Positions 20,967 through 28,622 of a DNA stretch of 64,000 nt are shown in pieces. Position numbers and translations under genes: made by a program. The stretch is from contig JAFGTS010000029.1 of assembly GCA_016933965.1 (NCBI GenBank), forward strand, positions 1 through 64,000. Reading direction: 5' to 3'. This DNA is from Deltaproteobacteria bacterium. Its GTDB lineage: Bacteria; Desulfobacterota; Syntrophia; Syntrophales; UBA2210. The first letter of the stretch is position 1; each line of letters starts with the position of its first letter. The notes below the pieces were generated by a model. It saw only the letters and a list, made by a program, of their open reading frames with translations, was not told the origin of the DNA and did no database searches.

Positions 20967-20995
20967 CGGTCGTGATGTATGAAGGGAAGCGGGAA

Positions 20996-21982
20996 ATGAC
21001 CGTGATGGAAGACAGGGAGCTCGTTACCGATATTCAGCGGTTCTCCGTCAACGACGGTCCCGGATTCAGGACGAACGTATATCTGAAGGGCTGCCCGCTG
21101 CGGTGCCGATGGTGCCATAATCCGGAGACCATCGCCGTATATCCCGAAATATACTGGAAAAAGAGACTCTGCGTTCAGTGCGGCGCCTGTCTGCAGGCGT
21201 GTCCGAAGGAAGCGATCAATCCGCCTGTCGATCCGGTGCTTGCCCGTCAGGAGGATTCCCCCTACCACAAGATCATTCGTTCCCGCTGTGACCTGTGCAT
21301 GAAGTGTGTCGACGCGTGCAGCTACGATGCCCTGGAAATCGTCGGACGACCCATGACGGTAAAGGAAATTCTCGACGAAGTTGAGAAGGACCGGCCCTTC
21401 TATGACAACTCCGGCGGCGGCATGACGTTGAGCGGGGGGGAACCGACGGCACACGCGGATTTCTCTGAAAAATTGCTGAAGGAAGCCCGCAGGCGGGGGA
21501 TCCACACCTGCCTTGATACCAACGGATTCTGTCCCTGGGAAGTTTTTGAGCGTTTGATCCCGGACGTGGACGTCGTGCTCTATGACATAAAGCATCTTGA
21601 TCCGGCGAAACATGAAGAGATGACGGGAGCCGGGAACGAGATAATTCTGGCCAATCTTGAGAGACTGCTCTCGGCCGGTGCCCAGGTCTGGGTCAGGGTC
21701 CCCGTTATCCCCGGATTTAACGACGACATGGCATTTCATCAGGAGCTGGCGCGTTTTCTGCTGGATGTTCCGCGGCGGGTCTGCCGGGTCGACCTTCTTC
21801 CCTATCATAACTGGTGCCAGGACAAGTATGGATGGCTAGGGATCGACTGGGAAATGAAAGAGATAGAATCGGCGGACCCCGGTTTCCTTGAAATATTTGC
21901 CGATATCTATCGAGAGGAGGGATTGAAGGCCACCGTCGGCGGTTCCGGCTTTGAAGAGGCCGGCTCGGCCTCAGGCGGGTAA
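20996..21982 (+). CDS. Glycyl-radical enzyme activase (radical SAM)
   Basis: About 328 residues from ATG 20996 (AAGGG upstream; in-frame GTG and ATG codons nearby leave the start uncertain by up to 8 codons). The radical-SAM motif CxxxCxxC is at 33-40 (GCPLRCRWCHNPE). Two further 4Fe-4S ferredoxin motifs follow (CVQCGACLQACP and CDLCMKCVDAC), the insertion typical of BssD/AssD-class activases and absent from the short PflA type. GGGMTLSGGEPTAH is the SAM-binding region. It would install the glycyl radical on the synthase encoded two genes downstream. Hairpins on both sides may set a lower activase level. Confidence 0.92.
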   Translation: MTVMEDRELVTDIQRFSVNDGPGFRTNVYLKGCPLRCRWCHNPETIAVYPEIYWKKRLCVQCGACLQACPKEAINPPVDPVLARQEDSPYHKIIRSRCDLCMKCVDACSYDALEIVGRPMTVKEILDEVEKDRPFYDNSGGGMTLSGGEPTAHADFSEKLLKEARRRGIHTCLDTNGFCPWEVFERLIPDVDVVLYDIKHLDPAKHEEMTGAGNEIILANLERLLSAGAQVWVRVPVIPGFNDDMAFHQELARFLLDVPRRVCRVDLLPYHNWCQDKYGWLGIDWEMKEIESADPGFLEIFADIYREEGLKATVGGSGFEEAGSASGG

Positions 21983-22015: not shown

Positions 22016-22103
22016 GTATGAACCGTGCGGTCCCCGAATGCAAAAGGGGATCGAGAGATATGTATGAAAATACGGGAGAGACCCGGTGAAGGAGGTGAAA
22101 CAC

Positions 22104-22268
22104 ATGCCTACATGCGAAGAGTGCAAGAATTTTTTTCCTATCGAGGACGAGCCCCGCAAGGGTGATTGTGTGGAGCGGGTTGTCGATCCCCGGCAGGCGT
22201 ATTACAAGGCGAAGCCCGTGAATGCCGATGATGATGCGACCACGTGTCCGTCATTTCAGAAAAAATAA
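22104..22268 (+). CDS. Fumarate-adding synthase gamma (BssC-like) small subunit
   Basis: A 54-residue protein with ATG 22104 behind a perfect AAGGAGGTGA. Four cysteines (4, 7, 22 and 48; CEEC, C, C) match the HiPIP-like single [4Fe-4S] site of BssC/AssC-type gamma subunits, which bind the surface of the catalytic subunit and are needed for activity. Size and position ahead of the catalytic gene also fit. It would be the smallest subunit of the complex. Confidence 0.85.
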   Translation: MPTCEECKNFFPIEDEPRKGDCVERVVDPRQAYYKAKPVNADDDATTCPSFQKK

Positions 22269-22398
22269 CGGGAACAGCCTTAAAATGGCCGAACCGGAAG
22301 CCCGTAACACAGTTCCATTACATTACACAATAAATTCCTTATCCGGTGCGGTGCGGTTCGGGGGTGTCTCTGAACAGTTGAAAAAAAGGGGGATTGTC

Positions 22399-24900
22399 AT
22401 GGCGGAAACAGCGGTCAGTATAAAAGAACTGGAAGAAAAACAAGAATGGTGGTGGGTCGCTGAAAAGAAACGTTCGGCGCGGCTTGACTACCTGAGAAAG
22501 GCGATGTGGAAAAAGGGTGCCATCGGAGGTCTGTATCCCCAGGGACTGTATGTCGATCTTGAGCGTCCCGTGCTGCAGACCGAAAAGGCGAAAGAACTTG
22601 AAAGGTCCCCGGACCCCTATGTGATCAAGTTCGCCCAGATACTTGCCCATGTTCTCGACAACAAGACGATTTTCATTACCGACCACGCGCAACTCGTCGG
22701 GTATCTGGGGAGCGCGCCGAACATGATCTCCTGGGACCCCACGCTTGCCGCGGTACTGAATCACGAGGTCGTCAATGATCCGACCTGTCTCCCCGAGCCC
22801 CTGGAAGAGAGCCTGAAAACGATCTCGGAGGTGGCCGATTACTGGGCGGGGAAATCGGACCTGGACAAGATCATGCCCTATCTGGACCTTGACGATGCCA
22901 TGAAGGTTCTCTCCGGCGCCATCGGCTGGGGTGTGCCGCTCTCCAGAGGGGGCTACTCCGGAAAGGATTACGAGTATATCATGACCGGTACGCATGCCTT
23001 TGAGGATATCATCGAAGACCTTGATCGACGGATCGATGAAGCCGACGCGAAGGCGCATGAACCGGGAGCTTCGAAAGAGATCAGCGATCTCTATGACAAG
23101 ATCAATATGTGGGAAGCAATGAAGATAGCCCTGGAGGCCGGTATCCGGCACGCGAAACGTCATGCCCGGCTTGCGCGGATCATCGCGGAGCATTTCGAGA
23201 CCGACAATGACAGACGGGAAGAACTGCTGAAAATCGCAGAGACCTGCGAACGGGTGCCTGCAAAGCCTCCACGGACCCTGCAGGAGTCGCTCCAGTACGA
23301 TCTCTTTATCCAGCTTTTCAGCAGAAACGAAGCGATCGAGGGGGCCTGGCCGGCGAGACCGGACTATTACCACGGGCCCTATTATGAAAAGGAAGTTGAC
23401 ATCGACAGGACGCTGACAAAGGAGGAAGCACTTGACCTCGTCGGTGAATTCCTTATCCGTGCCGCGGAAGTGTCCCAGTACAAGGTCAAATGGGCCCGCG
23501 AGGGGCTCCAGGGGATCGAGGGAACATGGGTGTGGACGCTGGGCGGCGTCAAGAAGGACGGCAGTGACGCGTGCAACGGCATGACGCTCGCGCTCCTTGA
23601 AGCCGCGAGACTGGTAAGGGTGGCGAATCCCACCTTTGCGTTCAGGTGGCATCCAAAGGTGTCGGACGAAGTGATGAGAGAGATCTTTGAATGCATCCGG
23701 CACGGCCTCGGATATCCTTCGATACGGAATGACCCGGTGCTTATCGCGAATGCCATGAACTGGCACGGGCATCCCATAGAAGAGGCCCGGACCTGGGCCC
23801 ACCAGGCATGCATGTCTCCAGCGCCGTGCACCAAGCATGGTTTTCAGCCCATGAGAATGGCGAACGCTACCGTCAATTGCGCAAAGATAATCGAGTATGT
23901 CTTCACGAGCGGGTTTGACCCTGTCGTGAACATGCAGATCGGTGCCGAAACACCGGATGCAGCCACATACACGAGTTACGAGCAGGTCTTCGATGCCTGG
24001 GTGACGCAGATGAAGACCGTCTTCAGTATCCTTGTCCGGCCGGTGAACAGGGCGCGGATACTGGCACCGAAGATGACACCGAGACCATTTCTGTCGGCGG
24101 TATCGGAGCGGTCGATCGACAGCGGCCTGGACGTATGCGATCCTTCCATAAGCCGCGGCAACGCGTGGATAACGGCGTTCACCTGGGTGGAGAACGCGGA
24201 CAGCCTGGCGGCGATCAAGAAACTCGTTTTCGATGAGAAGAAATACACCATGGCCGAGCTCAAGGAAGCCCTCGCGAACAACTGGGAGGGCAGGGAAGAA
24301 ATGCGCCTGGATTTCGTGAAGAATGCGCCCAAGTGGGGAAATGACGATGATTACGTTGACGCCATTATGCTCGATTGCCTGCACGAGGCGGCAAAGTTCT
24401 CAAGGGAACTCAAGTGCCCCTGCGGAAACACCTGGCCAATCCTTCCCGAGAACGTCAGCGGTAACATCCACTACGCGAATATCGTGGGGGCCCTGCCGAA
24501 CGGCCGCAGGCTCGGTGACGCTCTCTATGACGGCGGGATTTCCCCCGGACCGGGGCTTGACAAGAAAGGACCCACGGCGGTGCTGAAGTCATGCTCCAAG
24601 ATAGACCATATTTCGGACGGCAGGGCCTTTCTGCTGAACCAGCGGTTGTCGCCGACCCAGCTTGCCGGAGAAAAGGGATACCAGCTCTGGAAGACATACA
24701 TGAAGACCTGGGCTGATCTCGGGCTGGACCATGTTCAATTCAACTGCGTGTCCGATGAAACCCTGAGAAGCGCCCAGAGAGACCCTGAGAAATACCAGGA
24801 GGTCATCGTGCGGGTGGCAGGATACAGCGCGCATTTCGTGGATATCAGCCGCAAGACACAGGATAACATCATACAGCGGACGGTCCAGGGACTGGGATAA
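22399..24900 (+). CDS. Glycyl-radical fumarate-adding synthase, catalytic subunit (BssA/AssA/MasD type)
   Basis: An 833-residue subunit from ATG 22399 (AAGGGGGA upstream). The catalytic thiyl Cys471 is in CMSPAPCTKHG, and Arg486 in QPMRMANAT lies 15 residues later, the same spacing as Cys493/Arg508 of benzylsuccinate synthase, where the Arg binds fumarate. The glycyl radical is Gly808 in RVAGYSAHFVD, 25 residues from the C-terminus. Length fits X-succinate synthases (about 830-865), and the flanking small Fe-S subunits exclude pyruvate formate-lyase and diol dehydratase. It adds a hydrocarbon radical to fumarate. Ligase, mutase and decarboxylase genes in the same operon favour an alkane-like substrate over toluene, but the exact substrate cannot be read. 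Confidence 0.9.
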   Translation: MAETAVSIKELEEKQEWWWVAEKKRSARLDYLRKAMWKKGAIGGLYPQGLYVDLERPVLQTEKAKELERSPDPYVIKFAQILAHVLDNKTIFITDHAQLVGYLGSAPNMISWDPTLAAVLNHEVVNDPTCLPEPLEESLKTISEVADYWAGKSDLDKIMPYLDLDDAMKVLSGAIGWGVPLSRGGYSGKDYEYIMTGTHAFEDIIEDLDRRIDEADAKAHEPGASKEISDLYDKINMWEAMKIALEAGIRHAKRHARLARIIAEHFETDNDRREELLKIAETCERVPAKPPRTLQESLQYDLFIQLFSRNEAIEGAWPARPDYYHGPYYEKEVDIDRTLTKEEALDLVGEFLIRAAEVSQYKVKWAREGLQGIEGTWVWTLGGVKKDGSDACNGMTLALLEAARLVRVANPTFAFRWHPKVSDEVMREIFECIRHGLGYPSIRNDPVLIANAMNWHGHPIEEARTWAHQACMSPAPCTKHGFQPMRMANATVNCAKIIEYVFTSGFDPVVNMQIGAETPDAATYTSYEQVFDAWVTQMKTVFSILVRPVNRARILAPKMTPRPFLSAVSERSIDSGLDVCDPSISRGNAWITAFTWVENADSLAAIKKLVFDEKKYTMAELKEALANNWEGREEMRLDFVKNAPKWGNDDDYVDAIMLDCLHEAAKFSRELKCPCGNTWPILPENVSGNIHYANIVGALPNGRRLGDALYDGGISPGPGLDKKGPTAVLKSCSKIDHISDGRAFLLNQRLSPTQLAGEKGYQLWKTYMKTWADLGLDHVQFNCVSDETLRSAQRDPEKYQEVIVRVAGYSAHFVDISRKTQDNIIQRTVQGLG

Positions 24901-24980: not shown

Positions 24981-25349
24981 ATGGCGCGAAAAAGCCGTCA
25001 GGATTACGCAAAAGCATCAGGGGTGTTCGGCCTGCAGCCCGGGAAATTTAGCACCGTCGAAGATACGGAAACAATTCCGGAGAGACCCTGTGGTCTGTGC
25101 AAGCACTTTCTGGAAAGCGCGTGGTCGAGCGATGGAAGGGGAAGCTGCAAGCTTTTGAAAGAGGGTTCCGATATCACCTGTGATCCGCCTGTCTTTGTTC
25201 TGGAGGGGAAAAACGGGTACATGATGAGGATCCTTACCGATGCCTCGAGGTGCACCTATTACGAGCGAAACGAGTTTATCGACAAAGACGGGTATGAATG
25301 CAGCGATCCTGCGTTCAGAAGGTTCATACGGCAATTCAGGGACAAGTGA
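24981..25349 (+). CDS. Fumarate-adding synthase beta (BssB-like) small subunit
   Basis: A 122-residue protein behind GAGGAGG. Cysteines 37, 40, 56 and 91 (CGLC, GSCKLL, RCTYYE) give the same CxxC...C...C [4Fe-4S] pattern as the gamma subunit, plus an extra Cys67. In benzylsuccinate synthase the beta subunit wraps the catalytic subunit and gates access to the radical site. It lies 80 bp downstream of the catalytic gene. The gene order activase-gamma-alpha-beta matches bssDCAB. Confidence 0.87.
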   Translation: MARKSRQDYAKASGVFGLQPGKFSTVEDTETIPERPCGLCKHFLESAWSSDGRGSCKLLKEGSDITCDPPVFVLEGKNGYMMRILTDASRCTYYERNEFIDKDGYECSDPAFRRFIRQFRDK

Positions 25350-25386
25350 GGAATTGCTTCACAGAATAATGCAAAAGGAGGACGTT

Positions 25387-26004
25387 ATGAAATGTCCTGA
25401 ATGCGGACACGAAGCTCCCGTTGCGGAATTTCGATATCTTTATAATGCACGCATTGATTCCTCGGTAAGCATTAGGCAGTGCACACAATGCCAGGCCTGG
25501 CTCGCCGTCGATGAACTGGCGGGTACGGCGAATCAGACGGTCGGTCCGGGAGAGGCCCCGTGGGGGAAATCGGCCGGCATCGAGGGCCTCGCGGAGGACG
25601 CATGAACCGGGGAAGAGTATCTCCGCGGAAAGTACAGGGAGTTCCTCGGGCAGGGGGGATGTGCCATGGATCTTGTGTGCCGGATATGCGGGTATCACGG
25701 GGACTACCGGGATTTTGATTATCTGTGCAGGAACGGGTGACCGGCCACCGGGGAATCTGATCTCCGGAGATGCCCCAGGTGCGGGGCTGAATGCGTTTTT
25801 TCCCGGTCCGAGTCCCTCGAAGATGAGGAAACCCGGATGAGAGAGCTTTCCCGGGAACTGGCCTTGATAACCCGGGGCGACGGGCCGGCACGCCTGGCCG
25901 AGGCGAAGAGAATAATCAGAACGCTTCACGAAATGAACAGGCGGTGGAACATACAGCGGCTCAATGAATTTCTCCGTGCGCGGCAGAAGGAACTCTTTTT
26001 CTGA
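25387..26004 (+). CDS. Tandem zinc-ribbon protein with two in-frame UGA codons (possible selenoprotein or recoded gene)
   Basis: The gene starts at ATG 25387 behind AAAGGAGG. Residues 1-72 carry a CxxC/CxxC zinc ribbon (Cys 3, 6, 32, 35). TGA (25603-25605) falls at codon 73 and TGA (25738-25740) at codon 118, but the same frame stays coding to a TGA ending at 26004 (205 codons). The second section has another ribbon (Cys 98, 101, 129, 132). The ribbons are homologous: CxxCG[HY], then EFRYLY versus DFDYLC at the same distance. The C-terminal ~65 residues are charged and helical. Continuous codon character and homologous domains in one frame argue for a single protein, read by selenocysteine insertion or other readthrough, or recently broken by two nonsense changes. 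A MasB-like accessory role in the synthase complex is possible but unproven. Confidence 0.6.
25606..25625 (+). other. Post-UGA hairpin 1
   Basis: Immediately after the first in-frame TGA, CGGGGA and TCTCCG pair (one G-U) across loop AGAGTA. The flanks ACCGGGGAA and ATCTCCG are identical to those of hairpin 2. The loop begins about 9 bases after the TGA, closer than usual for a bacterial SECIS. Confidence 0.45.
25747..25767 (+). other. Post-UGA hairpin 2 (SECIS-like position)
   Basis: Seven bases after the second in-frame TGA, CCGGGGA and TCTCCGG form a 7-bp stem (one G-U) with loop ATCTGA. The loop starts about 15 bases after the TGA, close to the distance in the E. coli fdhF SECIS. The loop has no canonical GGUCU-type motif. 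It shares 16 of 20 bases with hairpin 1. Confidence 0.5.
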
Positions 26005-26097: not shown

Positions 26098-26946
26098 ATG
26101 ACTCAGACTGACAGGGATTTGGCGGTTCCGAAGAAGGAGCGGCATTTTTTTCTCAGGCAAGAGGTCATTGAAAACCTTGAAAGGGTGGAGAAACTCTCGC
26201 AGCGGCATCCCGTGAACGTTCTGGTGACGGGAAAACAGGGGTGCGGTAAATCCACCCTTGTCCGCCAGTTCGCGGCCCGGAACAAGCGGCCATTCGCCGT
26301 TTTTCAGATCGGCATCCTTTCCGAACCCGGACAGCTTTTTGGAGAGCACCGGCTCAGGGAAGGTGAAACGTACTATCAGAAATTTCTCTTTCCCCGAGCG
26401 ATCCAGACACCCGGTTGCGTCATTCACCTGGAGGAGATCAACCGGCCCGAGCACCCGAAGGCATTGAACATGCTTTTTTCAGTACTTTCGGAAGACCGAA
26501 AGGTATGGCTCGATGAACTCGGTCTTCTTTCGGTCGCCCGGGGTGTGGTTTTTTTTGCCACGCTTAACGAGGGTGATGAGTTCATCGGGACGGAAATGCT
26601 CGATTCGGCGCTCCGCGACCGTTTTTATGTCTCGATGCTTGATTATCTGCCCGCCGACGTAGAAATGAAAGTTCTGTACCTCAAGGCGGGCATCGACGAG
26701 GCCGATGCGCTGACGATCGTGAACGTGGCGAACCGTCTCCGCGGCCATGCACAGGAACCGATGGTCGTATCGACCAGACATACGCTGATGATAGCCGAAA
26801 TGGTCAATGTGGGAGCAACGATAAAGGAAGCTTTTATCAACAGCCTTCAGATCAACCCCGATATTCTCGAGTCCGTCCTGCTGTCCCTGCACGCTGAACT
26901 GGGATTGAGGGAGAAGGAGGCGGCAAAGGTCTACGCCCTGTACTGA
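26098..26946 (+). CDS. MoxR/NorQ/CbbQ-type AAA+ ATPase (BssE-like)
   Basis: A 282-residue ATPase with a GGGGG ribosome binding site. Walker A is TGKQGCGKST (about 43-52), Walker B region VIHLEEINRPE, then sensor-like FFATLNEGDEFIGT and an arginine-finger region SALRDRF. MoxR-class ATPases work with VWA proteins to remodel or activate enzymes and insert cofactors; bss operons encode such an ATPase (BssE). It overlaps the VWA gene by one base (TGATG), so the two are translationally coupled. Likely job: maturation or reactivation of the glycyl-radical complex (inference). Confidence 0.88.
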   Translation: MTQTDRDLAVPKKERHFFLRQEVIENLERVEKLSQRHPVNVLVTGKQGCGKSTLVRQFAARNKRPFAVFQIGILSEPGQLFGEHRLREGETYYQKFLFPRAIQTPGCVIHLEEINRPEHPKALNMLFSVLSEDRKVWLDELGLLSVARGVVFFATLNEGDEFIGTEMLDSALRDRFYVSMLDYLPADVEMKVLYLKAGIDEADALTIVNVANRLRGHAQEPMVVSTRHTLMIAEMVNVGATIKEAFINSLQINPDILESVLLSLHAELGLREKEAAKVYALY

Positions 26947-28622
26947 TGAATAGAGCAGGCATGGAAGAGTCAACAGAACAGAGGGCCGGTGTATCTTCCG
27001 GGATGGAAGGCCTTTCCGAATTCTGGCGCAGGAACACATCGACGCTTGAATCCGTGGAACTTGCCTGCCTGTTGAAGGCGCTGCGCAAGGTGACCGGTCA
27101 TCTCGGGCCGAACGCCGGGACCGTCGAATACCCGGGCATGTCCCGCGGGGCAGTCCCCTCGATCATCATAGACCCGGGCCTTGTGGTGGGACGATACCCC
27201 GTACCGCCGGAACGGGTCGACGAACTGGTGGGACTGGTGACCCACGAAGCGCTTCATCGTATTGAATGGAGCGAGTATCTCTGGAAGCGCCTGGAACCGG
27301 ATTTTCAGAGCATGGGCCCGGTGCCACTCGTGATATTTCAAAAGATCATTCATACCGGTGAAGACATCTATGTCGATATGACAGCTGACAGAACGGTTTT
27401 CGGCCTTTACACGGCGAAGGTACGGCGCATCGTGTTCGATTCCCTGAGGGAGAAGGCGAAACCGGTCCCGCCGTCCATCGACCGGCTCATGTATCTCTGG
27501 TGGACCGCCTCCTGGGAGAGGGATGAAGGGTCGCCCGGGGACGATGTCTACCGGGAACCGCTCAGCGCATTGTTGTCTCTTTCCCGGTGTTTGATGGAAG
27601 TGATGAACGAAAGCACCGGACCGGTCGCGCGGTGTGAACGACGCGCGGCACTGTATCGTGAAACCTGGAATGACCTGGGTGAGTCCCTCTTTTCGTGGAT
27701 GGTGCTCGATAAAAGACTTCAATGGTACCCCGTTGCCGTGGCGGAAAGAGTACACTGCGGCACCGTTCCGCCCGGGAGGGAGCATAAGGAACTTCCCCCG
27801 GTGCTTCTTCGCAGAATAGAAACGGAATTGGCGGTCACGTCGTCGGATATCACGCCGCTCATCCGTTCCGTTACGGGATACGACGACGATGATGTGGTCC
27901 CCACCTCCCGGTGGGATTATCATATCCCCGCCTATCCCGTCGTGGACCGGCATCTTGTGGGACGTCTCAGGGAAATATTCCGGCGGTACGCGAAACGCCG
28001 GCGTACCGTGAGCCGCGGTCTTGCAAGCGGTGTTATCGATGCCCGCCGTCTTTATCGGGCGGCCACGACAGGAGCCTGCTTCAAGATGGCCGGCACCGTA
28101 CCGAGCCTTGACTGGAACGTGACCTTTCTCATGGATGCGAGCGGTTCAATGAGAGGGAGTACCTGGCGCATCGTAGAGAACACCGTTGCCACCATTCACC
28201 GGGCGCTTCTGGGACATCAGAGCCGACTCCAGGCCTATGCCTACTTTGAAAGGGACGGTGTGTGCATGATTTCCCGGCTTATCAAGGGGAGGCGGCTCTT
28301 TTCCGTGCCGCCCGGAGGACAGACCGCATCGGGACAGGCGATCATCGCGGCGGCCCTTTTTATGTCCTCCGAACACACCCGCCGGCTCCTCGTGCACGTC
28401 ACCGACGGAGAATCGAATTTCGGTGTCCCCGTGCAGTGCGGGATCGAGTTCTGCGCGCGGGAAGGCATTCACCTGATCACGCTGGGATGCGGGTGCCGGG
28501 ACCGGAAAGCGATGGTTGATCAATATGGCAGATCGATCCAGTTTTTTGATCATTTCGACCAGCTTCCCCAGGCGATCGAAAAACTCCTGAGACGGTCCTT
28601 CCTGTACGGGTTGTTGCCCTGA
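26946..28622 (+). CDS. Metallopeptidase-like plus VWA-domain protein, MoxR partner
   Basis: A 558-residue protein. The N-terminal half contains HEALH at 100-104, an HExxH zinc-binding motif, followed by HTGEDIYVD near 133, resembling the DUF2201-type putative metallopeptidase domain. The C-terminal VWA domain (about 385-558) has a complete MIDAS: DASGSM near 396, the threonine in GGQTASGQ and VTDGES. MoxR ATPases and MIDAS-VWA proteins act as pairs. Coupled translation with the ATPase and position after the synthase subunits suggest a maturation or repair machine. Whether HEALH is catalytic is unknown. Confidence 0.82.
   Translation: MNRAGMEESTEQRAGVSSGMEGLSEFWRRNTSTLESVELACLLKALRKVTGHLGPNAGTVEYPGMSRGAVPSIIIDPGLVVGRYPVPPERVDELVGLVTHEALHRIEWSEYLWKRLEPDFQSMGPVPLVIFQKIIHTGEDIYVDMTADRTVFGLYTAKVRRIVFDSLREKAKPVPPSIDRLMYLWWTASWERDEGSPGDDVYREPLSALLSLSRCLMEVMNESTGPVARCERRAALYRETWNDLGESLFSWMVLDKRLQWYPVAVAERVHCGTVPPGREHKELPPVLLRRIETELAVTSSDITPLIRSVTGYDDDDVVPTSRWDYHIPAYPVVDRHLVGRLREIFRRYAKRRRTVSRGLASGVIDARRLYRAATTGACFKMAGTVPSLDWNVTFLMDASGSMRGSTWRIVENTVATIHRALLGHQSRLQAYAYFERDGVCMISRLIKGRRLFSVPPGGQTASGQAIIAAALFMSSEHTRRLLVHVTDGESNFGVPVQCGIEFCAREGIHLITLGCGCRDRKAMVDQYGRSIQFFDHFDQLPQAIEKLLRRSFLYGLLP

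Follow-up and report, generated by a model that had tools for sequence, protein, structure and literature searches.

The 64,000-nt window (the whole stretch of DNA that was analysed, from contig JAFGTS010000029.1 of the Deltaproteobacteria assembly GCA_016933965.1) carries an operon for a fumarate-adding glycyl-radical enzyme, as had been predicted from the bare sequence, with genes for an activating enzyme, for gamma, alpha and beta subunits, and for a MoxR-type ATPase and a VWA-domain protein (Table 1). The alpha-subunit gene is given there as the full ORF; its true start probably lies near 22400. Between the beta-subunit and ATPase genes, positions 25387-26004 form one frame of 205 codons with TGA at codon 73 (25603-25605) and codon 118 (25738-25740), a description that the sequence bears out. 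The original prediction took this frame for a single protein with two recoded UGA codons. We treat the part up to the first TGA as gene 1 and the part from the ATG at 25666, which has its own upstream GGGGGGA, as gene 2.

Table 1. Features of the alkylsuccinate synthase operon in the window
Feature	Coordinates	Strand	Basis
Glycyl-radical activating enzyme (AssD/MasG/BssD type)	20972..21982	+	TIGR02494, 350.6 bits
Gamma subunit (BssC/TutF, MasC type)	22086..22268	+	PF08201, E 1.6e-18
Catalytic alpha subunit AssA/MasD, ORF as listed	22222..24900	+	glycyl-radical enzyme family matches; homologues in same clusters
Beta subunit MasB/AssB	24981..25349	+	PDB 9o8u_B, E 6.6e-26
Ribosome binding site of masE, AAGGAGG	25376..25382	+	read from sequence
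Gene 1, masE, delta (rubredoxin-like) subunit of (1-methylalkyl)succinate synthase, 72 aa	25387..25605	+	PDB 9o8u_D
Ribosome binding site of gene 2, GGGGGGA	25653..25659	+	read from sequence
Gene 2, predicted selenoprotein gene, 112 aa; stop TGA 26002-26004	25666..26004	+	25 distinct sequences; AlphaFold2 model
In-frame TGA, predicted to be decoded as selenocysteine, gene 2 residue 25 (codon 118 of the 205-codon frame)	25738..25740	+	TGA/Cys exchange; Sec machinery
RNA hairpin 1, 7 bp, 6-nt loop, proposed SECIS part	25748..25767	+	compensatory changes, 11 UGA homologues
RNA hairpin 2 (CCCC-AGGUGC-GGGG), conserved AGGUG loop, proposed SECIS part	25773..25786	+	compensatory changes; AGG Arg codon bias
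MoxR/CbbQ-type AAA ATPase (BssE/AssE-like), directly 3' of gene 2 in most loci	26098..26946	+	PF07728, E 3e-19; synteny
VWA-domain protein (BssF-like)	26946..28622	+	PF00092, E 1.1e-5; synteny

Two genes in one open frame

Gene 1 matches the 71-residue MasE (PDB 9o8u chain D) over residues 1-70 with an E value of 5.6e-24, and it shows what marks MasE / MASS-delta, i.e. a length of ~71 residues, cysteines at positions 3, 6, 32 and 35, and the conserved C-terminal tail. MasE is the delta subunit of (1-methylalkyl)succinate synthase, known from a cryo-EM structure in which it sits at the site of the catalytic subunit to which the activating enzyme has to bind, and touches the glycyl-radical domain (PMC12358834). 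Because all gene 1 homologues (n = 11) end at residues 71-77, with either TAA or TGA as stop codon, the first TGA is on this comparative evidence the ordinary stop of masE, and the frame therefore holds two genes for two proteins.

The two Cys-rich ribbons are indeed homologous, as had been claimed (gene 2 profile against gene 1 profile, probability 94.6, E 6.8e-8), and this homology, together with the placement of both TGAs in the same frame, is what speaks for one 205-codon protein with two selenocysteines. Against such a protein, homologues carry the ribbons as two separate genes, 40-182 nt apart and usually in different frames or parted by further stops; they stop, like the solved MasE, at residues 71-77; and gene 2 occurs without a directly adjacent masE at three loci (L093, L095 and L097). 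The 60-nt gap between the two genes of the window is by chance open in the same frame, and the arrangement at other loci indicates that their common frame is a coincidence. Homologues ending at codon 72, which the original prediction had itself listed as evidence against a single protein, are what was found, and we consider the two-selenocysteine protein refuted by the MasE-length homologues and the separate gene arrangement, leaving it practically no chance.

Decoding of the UGA in gene 2

Homologues of gene 2 were collected from a scan of genome contigs, a search of relatives, and profiles run against 155 genomes from the order and 395 from the phylum. Among 25 distinct sequences, codon 25 is TGA in 16 and a Cys codon in nine, and in none does it specify Trp or any other residue; the comparison of Cys with UGA proposed for this codon thus favours selenocysteine (Sec). 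Approximately four Sec/Cys switches are needed on the gene 2 tree, many of whose branches are weak. Purifying selection is equal on both sides of the TGA, with a median dN/dS of 0.17 before codon 25 (33 usable pairs) and 0.17 after it (38 usable pairs, among TGA members). The coding character that had been noticed past the second TGA is well beyond chance, given 50-66% identity in 24 distinct homologues and this dN/dS of ~0.17. Gene 2 therefore shows the traits by which selenoproteins are recognized, namely a UGA aligned with Cys and a conserved frame under purifying selection beyond it.

The genes selA, selB, selC and selD, a search for which had also been suggested, are all present in the window's genome. 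SelB scores 365 bits and SelA 521 bits, selD has an in-frame TGA of its own, and selC is a tRNA-Sec with anticodon TCA, read from the sequence and truncated by the end of contig 32. This gene (bases 1-80 of that contig, locus L046) is the sole tRNA-Sec found in the genome, and ARAGORN misses it because the contig end cuts it. SelB exceeds the cut-off in 15 of the 16 TGA-bearing genomes searched, the exception (G346) being 85% complete. The tRNA-Sec search of G021 gave nothing above the cut-off, probably owing to an assembly gap. Among genomes with the Cys form of gene 2, G061 yielded no SelB over the cut-off and no SelA match, and G065 no SelA match; another, G197 (loci L099 and L100), encodes dual CXXC (seleno)proteins (family NF041197), one of them with an in-frame TGA.

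One assembly alone could not exclude a nonsense mutation or sequencing error, i.e. a decaying gene, but 16 distinct sequences, drawn from several families and assemblies, share this TGA, and the dN/dS after it is 0.17; error or decay is very improbable because many assemblies show the TGA/Cys exchange and selection is equal on both sides. Decoding of the UGA as Trp, or by unspecific readthrough, would also fit a frame that is open when TGA is read as Trp. This we likewise regard as very improbable, since the exchange is always with Cys and no homologue has Trp at residue 25, the masB and masE genes of the same operon end at TGA, and the genome has Sec machinery. Judged from these comparisons, Sec at codon 25 is almost certain, so that the selenocysteine originally proposed for both UGA codons would stand for the second and falls for the first, the normal stop of masE. 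Taken as a whole, the region very probably comprises two neighbouring genes within an alkylsuccinate synthase operon, masE and a gene for a 112-residue selenoprotein whose Sec is specified by the second TGA.

RNA structure was scored over the 51 nt from codon 25, against a null in which the protein is kept and synonymous codons are resampled. The mean z was -1.49 in TGA forms (n = 16) vs. +0.24 in Cys forms (n = 8), an excess of structure with a Mann-Whitney P of 0.0004 that is optimistic because the rows are related. In 11 non-Smithella TGA members, including the window, two hairpins just downstream of the TGA have 89.3% of cells paired and 12 double-sided changes; none of 500 shuffles paired as highly, slid controls reached at most 59%, and RNAalifold agrees with the pattern. 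The window's own hairpins pair at 7/7 and 4/4 positions, and by minimum free energy its 51 nt are not unusually stable (z -0.31). The loop of hairpin 2 reads AGGUG followed by C or U. Its Arg codon is AGG in all 11 UGA homologues that have Arg there, vs. 18% AGG elsewhere in the UGA members, a bias with a chance of ~8e-9 if the rows were independent. The fdhF SECIS of E. coli likewise has AGGU in its loop, a parallel that offers a lead. These two covarying hairpins are SECIS-like in the 11 members and likely represent the Sec insertion signal; the Smithella TGA members do not keep them and have a different layout. A search of the region against Rfam returned no credible match.

The gene 2 family and its operons

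Gene 2 has three parts: a MasE-like ribbon with four cysteines (C5, C8, C36 and C39), an inserted loop bearing Sec25, and a C-terminal domain of three helices. Throughout the 25 distinct sequences the four ribbon cysteines, which correspond to the metal-binding cysteines of MasE, are invariant, and residue 25 is Sec or Cys without exception, while Cys21, Cys28 and Cys43 vary. All nine Cys forms keep C28 (as CPAC or CVAC), whereas it is Thr or Ser in 7 of the 16 Sec forms, that of the window included (Fisher P 0.027). The AlphaFold2 model has a mean pLDDT of 79.6, with confident helices, a ribbon and Sec loop of low confidence, and a disordered loop at 26-30, next to residue 25; a fold search with it gave nothing significant (best E 0.56). 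In one family only (G237, G202 and G163; loci L070, L071 and L073) gene 2 has a Cys-Sec pair, NCUPAT, possibly a vicinal selenenylsulfide.

Although the N-terminal ribbon of gene 2 is homologous to that of MasE, the protein is not a second MasE: the Sec-bearing insert separates the two Cys pairs, three helices replace the tail that in MasE contacts the glycyl-radical domain, and gene 2 is absent from the subunits of the solved MasE complex (PMC12358834). The U-P-A-[C/T/S] of gene 2 resembles the motifs of the bacterial UxxC and UxxT selenoproteins, which likewise have a UGA-encoded Sec, Cys homologues and a downstream hairpin (PMC13188914). No Pfam or NCBIfam model fits gene 2. Small Cys-rich zinc ribbons, some with Sec, are known in the FmdB family (TIGR02605, UxxU) and the DG family (NF049953). 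Against TIGR02605, gene 2 sequences reach at best E 0.14 and ~11 bits (cut-off 31.3 bits); against NF049953 one member scores 27.7 bits and the window protein does not match (cut-off 130 bits). We rejected an identity with DG, since the true DG proteins of the phylum search differ in layout and context, with no MoxR, VWA or ass genes within ~1.5 kb. The dual CXXC model NF041197 (cut-off 40 bits) does not match gene 2, and no member of that family was found in the window's genome.

The usual gene order across loci is activase, gamma, alpha, beta, masE, gene 2, MoxR ATPase and VWA, with small rearrangements, and MoxR directly follows gene 2 in nearly all loci whose contig continues. Genes for methylmalonyl-CoA mutase, MmgE/PrpD, enoyl-CoA hydratase and an AMP-ligase lie around the ass clusters. 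Of 155 genomes of the order, 10 have both gene 2 and assA, one has gene 2 only (G081, where a contig edge intervenes), two have assA only (G079, 71% complete, and G102, again with a contig edge), and 142 have neither. This co-occurrence has a Fisher P of 4e-13, made optimistic by relatedness, and we consider it probable that gene 2 serves the alkylsuccinate synthase system.

We note some peculiar loci: (i) Solitary UGA copies of gene 2 lie away from the ass cluster in G044 (L082, contig C61, 6036-6365) and G028 (L083, contig C11, 9418-9747), beside a conserved aminotransferase gene, and assA is on other contigs of these genomes; in both copies Cys28 is gone and a new Cys stands two positions further on. 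(ii) At L093 (G243:C46, 9757-16899), gene 2 is followed by two successive MoxR-VWA pairs, the second with only 57% and 28% identity to that of the window; a second MoxR is also found in L095 and L097. (iii) A further MasE-like ribbon protein (MAIVCRKCGHKGTRAEFRFLGH...), the third, is encoded at L011 (G021:C56, ~1500-1730), immediately upstream of a gene for a glycyl-radical activase; it has a different C-terminal tail and may serve another glycyl-radical enzyme as its delta subunit.

Proposed role and significance

The two genes directly downstream of gene 2 belong to the same superfamilies as BssE and BssF of the toluene bss operons. According to the portions consulted of two papers (PMC7285207, PMC5874301), the AAA protein BssE is reported to be essential for toluene degradation and BssF is its VWA neighbour; these portions describe no selenoprotein partner for BssE/BssF. 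Because of the placement of MasE on the catalytic subunit, and because BssE is reportedly essential and has BssF as its VWA neighbour, our best inference for gene 2 is a selenium-dependent accessory that works with the MoxR-VWA pair when the radical enzyme is assembled, repaired or (re)activated. Its four-Cys ribbon would bind one Fe or Zn; the protein would dock, as MasE does, on the catalytic subunit, close to the glycyl-radical domain; and its three-helix tail would couple it to MoxR-VWA remodelling. The mobile loop could then present Sec25 as a reactive selenolate that acts on the enzyme or its Fe sites, by thiol-disulfide or radical-repair chemistry, while alkylsuccinate synthase is being assembled, repaired or (re)activated. 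This specific redox-repair role is tentative, a possibility to which we give clearly less than even weight.

About as tentative is a metallochaperone in which Sec25 is mainly a metal ligand and which supplies Fe to MasE or to the 4Fe-4S subunits. The ribbon fold suits such a function, as do the C25-x-x-C28 of all nine Cys forms and the retention of C21 and C43 in most members, but 7 of the 16 Sec forms have Thr or Ser in place of C28, and C21 and C43 are likewise missing from some. Since C28, C21 and C43 vary, Sec25 is the only invariant extra group, which suits a reactive selenolate more than it does a metal ligand. Regulation is a common function of ribbon proteins, and gene 2 has no catalytic domain that we could find, as might be expected of a redox-sensing regulator of the operon. 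A regulator is nevertheless improbable, in that gene 2 constantly lies beside MoxR-VWA and structural genes and not beside the sigma-54 regulator.

We regard gene 2 as a new selenoprotein family with a standard Sec mechanism; it may have been described elsewhere, the Haft families having been compared through the 2026 review only. The 2026 inventory of 119 prokaryotic selenoprotein families (PMC13188914) has none that it describes as accessory to fumarate-adding glycyl-radical enzymes, and we found no selenoprotein in the literature on alkylsuccinate or benzylsuccinate synthase systems, so the link of this family to a known enzyme system is not described in the literature examined. The family is thus an addition to a current inventory, one that ordinary gene callers cut at the UGA, and it supplies a candidate partner for the MoxR-VWA pair of these operons. 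When made recombinantly, the alkylsuccinate synthase complex gives poor yields and dissociates (PMC12358834); the lack of a predicted accessory selenoprotein is a concrete, testable candidate reason for this in some systems.

A broader proposal, which we hold to be doubtful, is that many anaerobes need a selenol-bearing MasE-like protein, acting with MoxR-VWA, for the quenching, repair or re-arming of their alkane-activating glycyl-radical enzymes; if true, anaerobic alkane activation would be partly selenium-dependent. Gene 2 ties selenium to anaerobic alkane activation, including that of Smithella, which takes part in oil degradation under methanogenic conditions.
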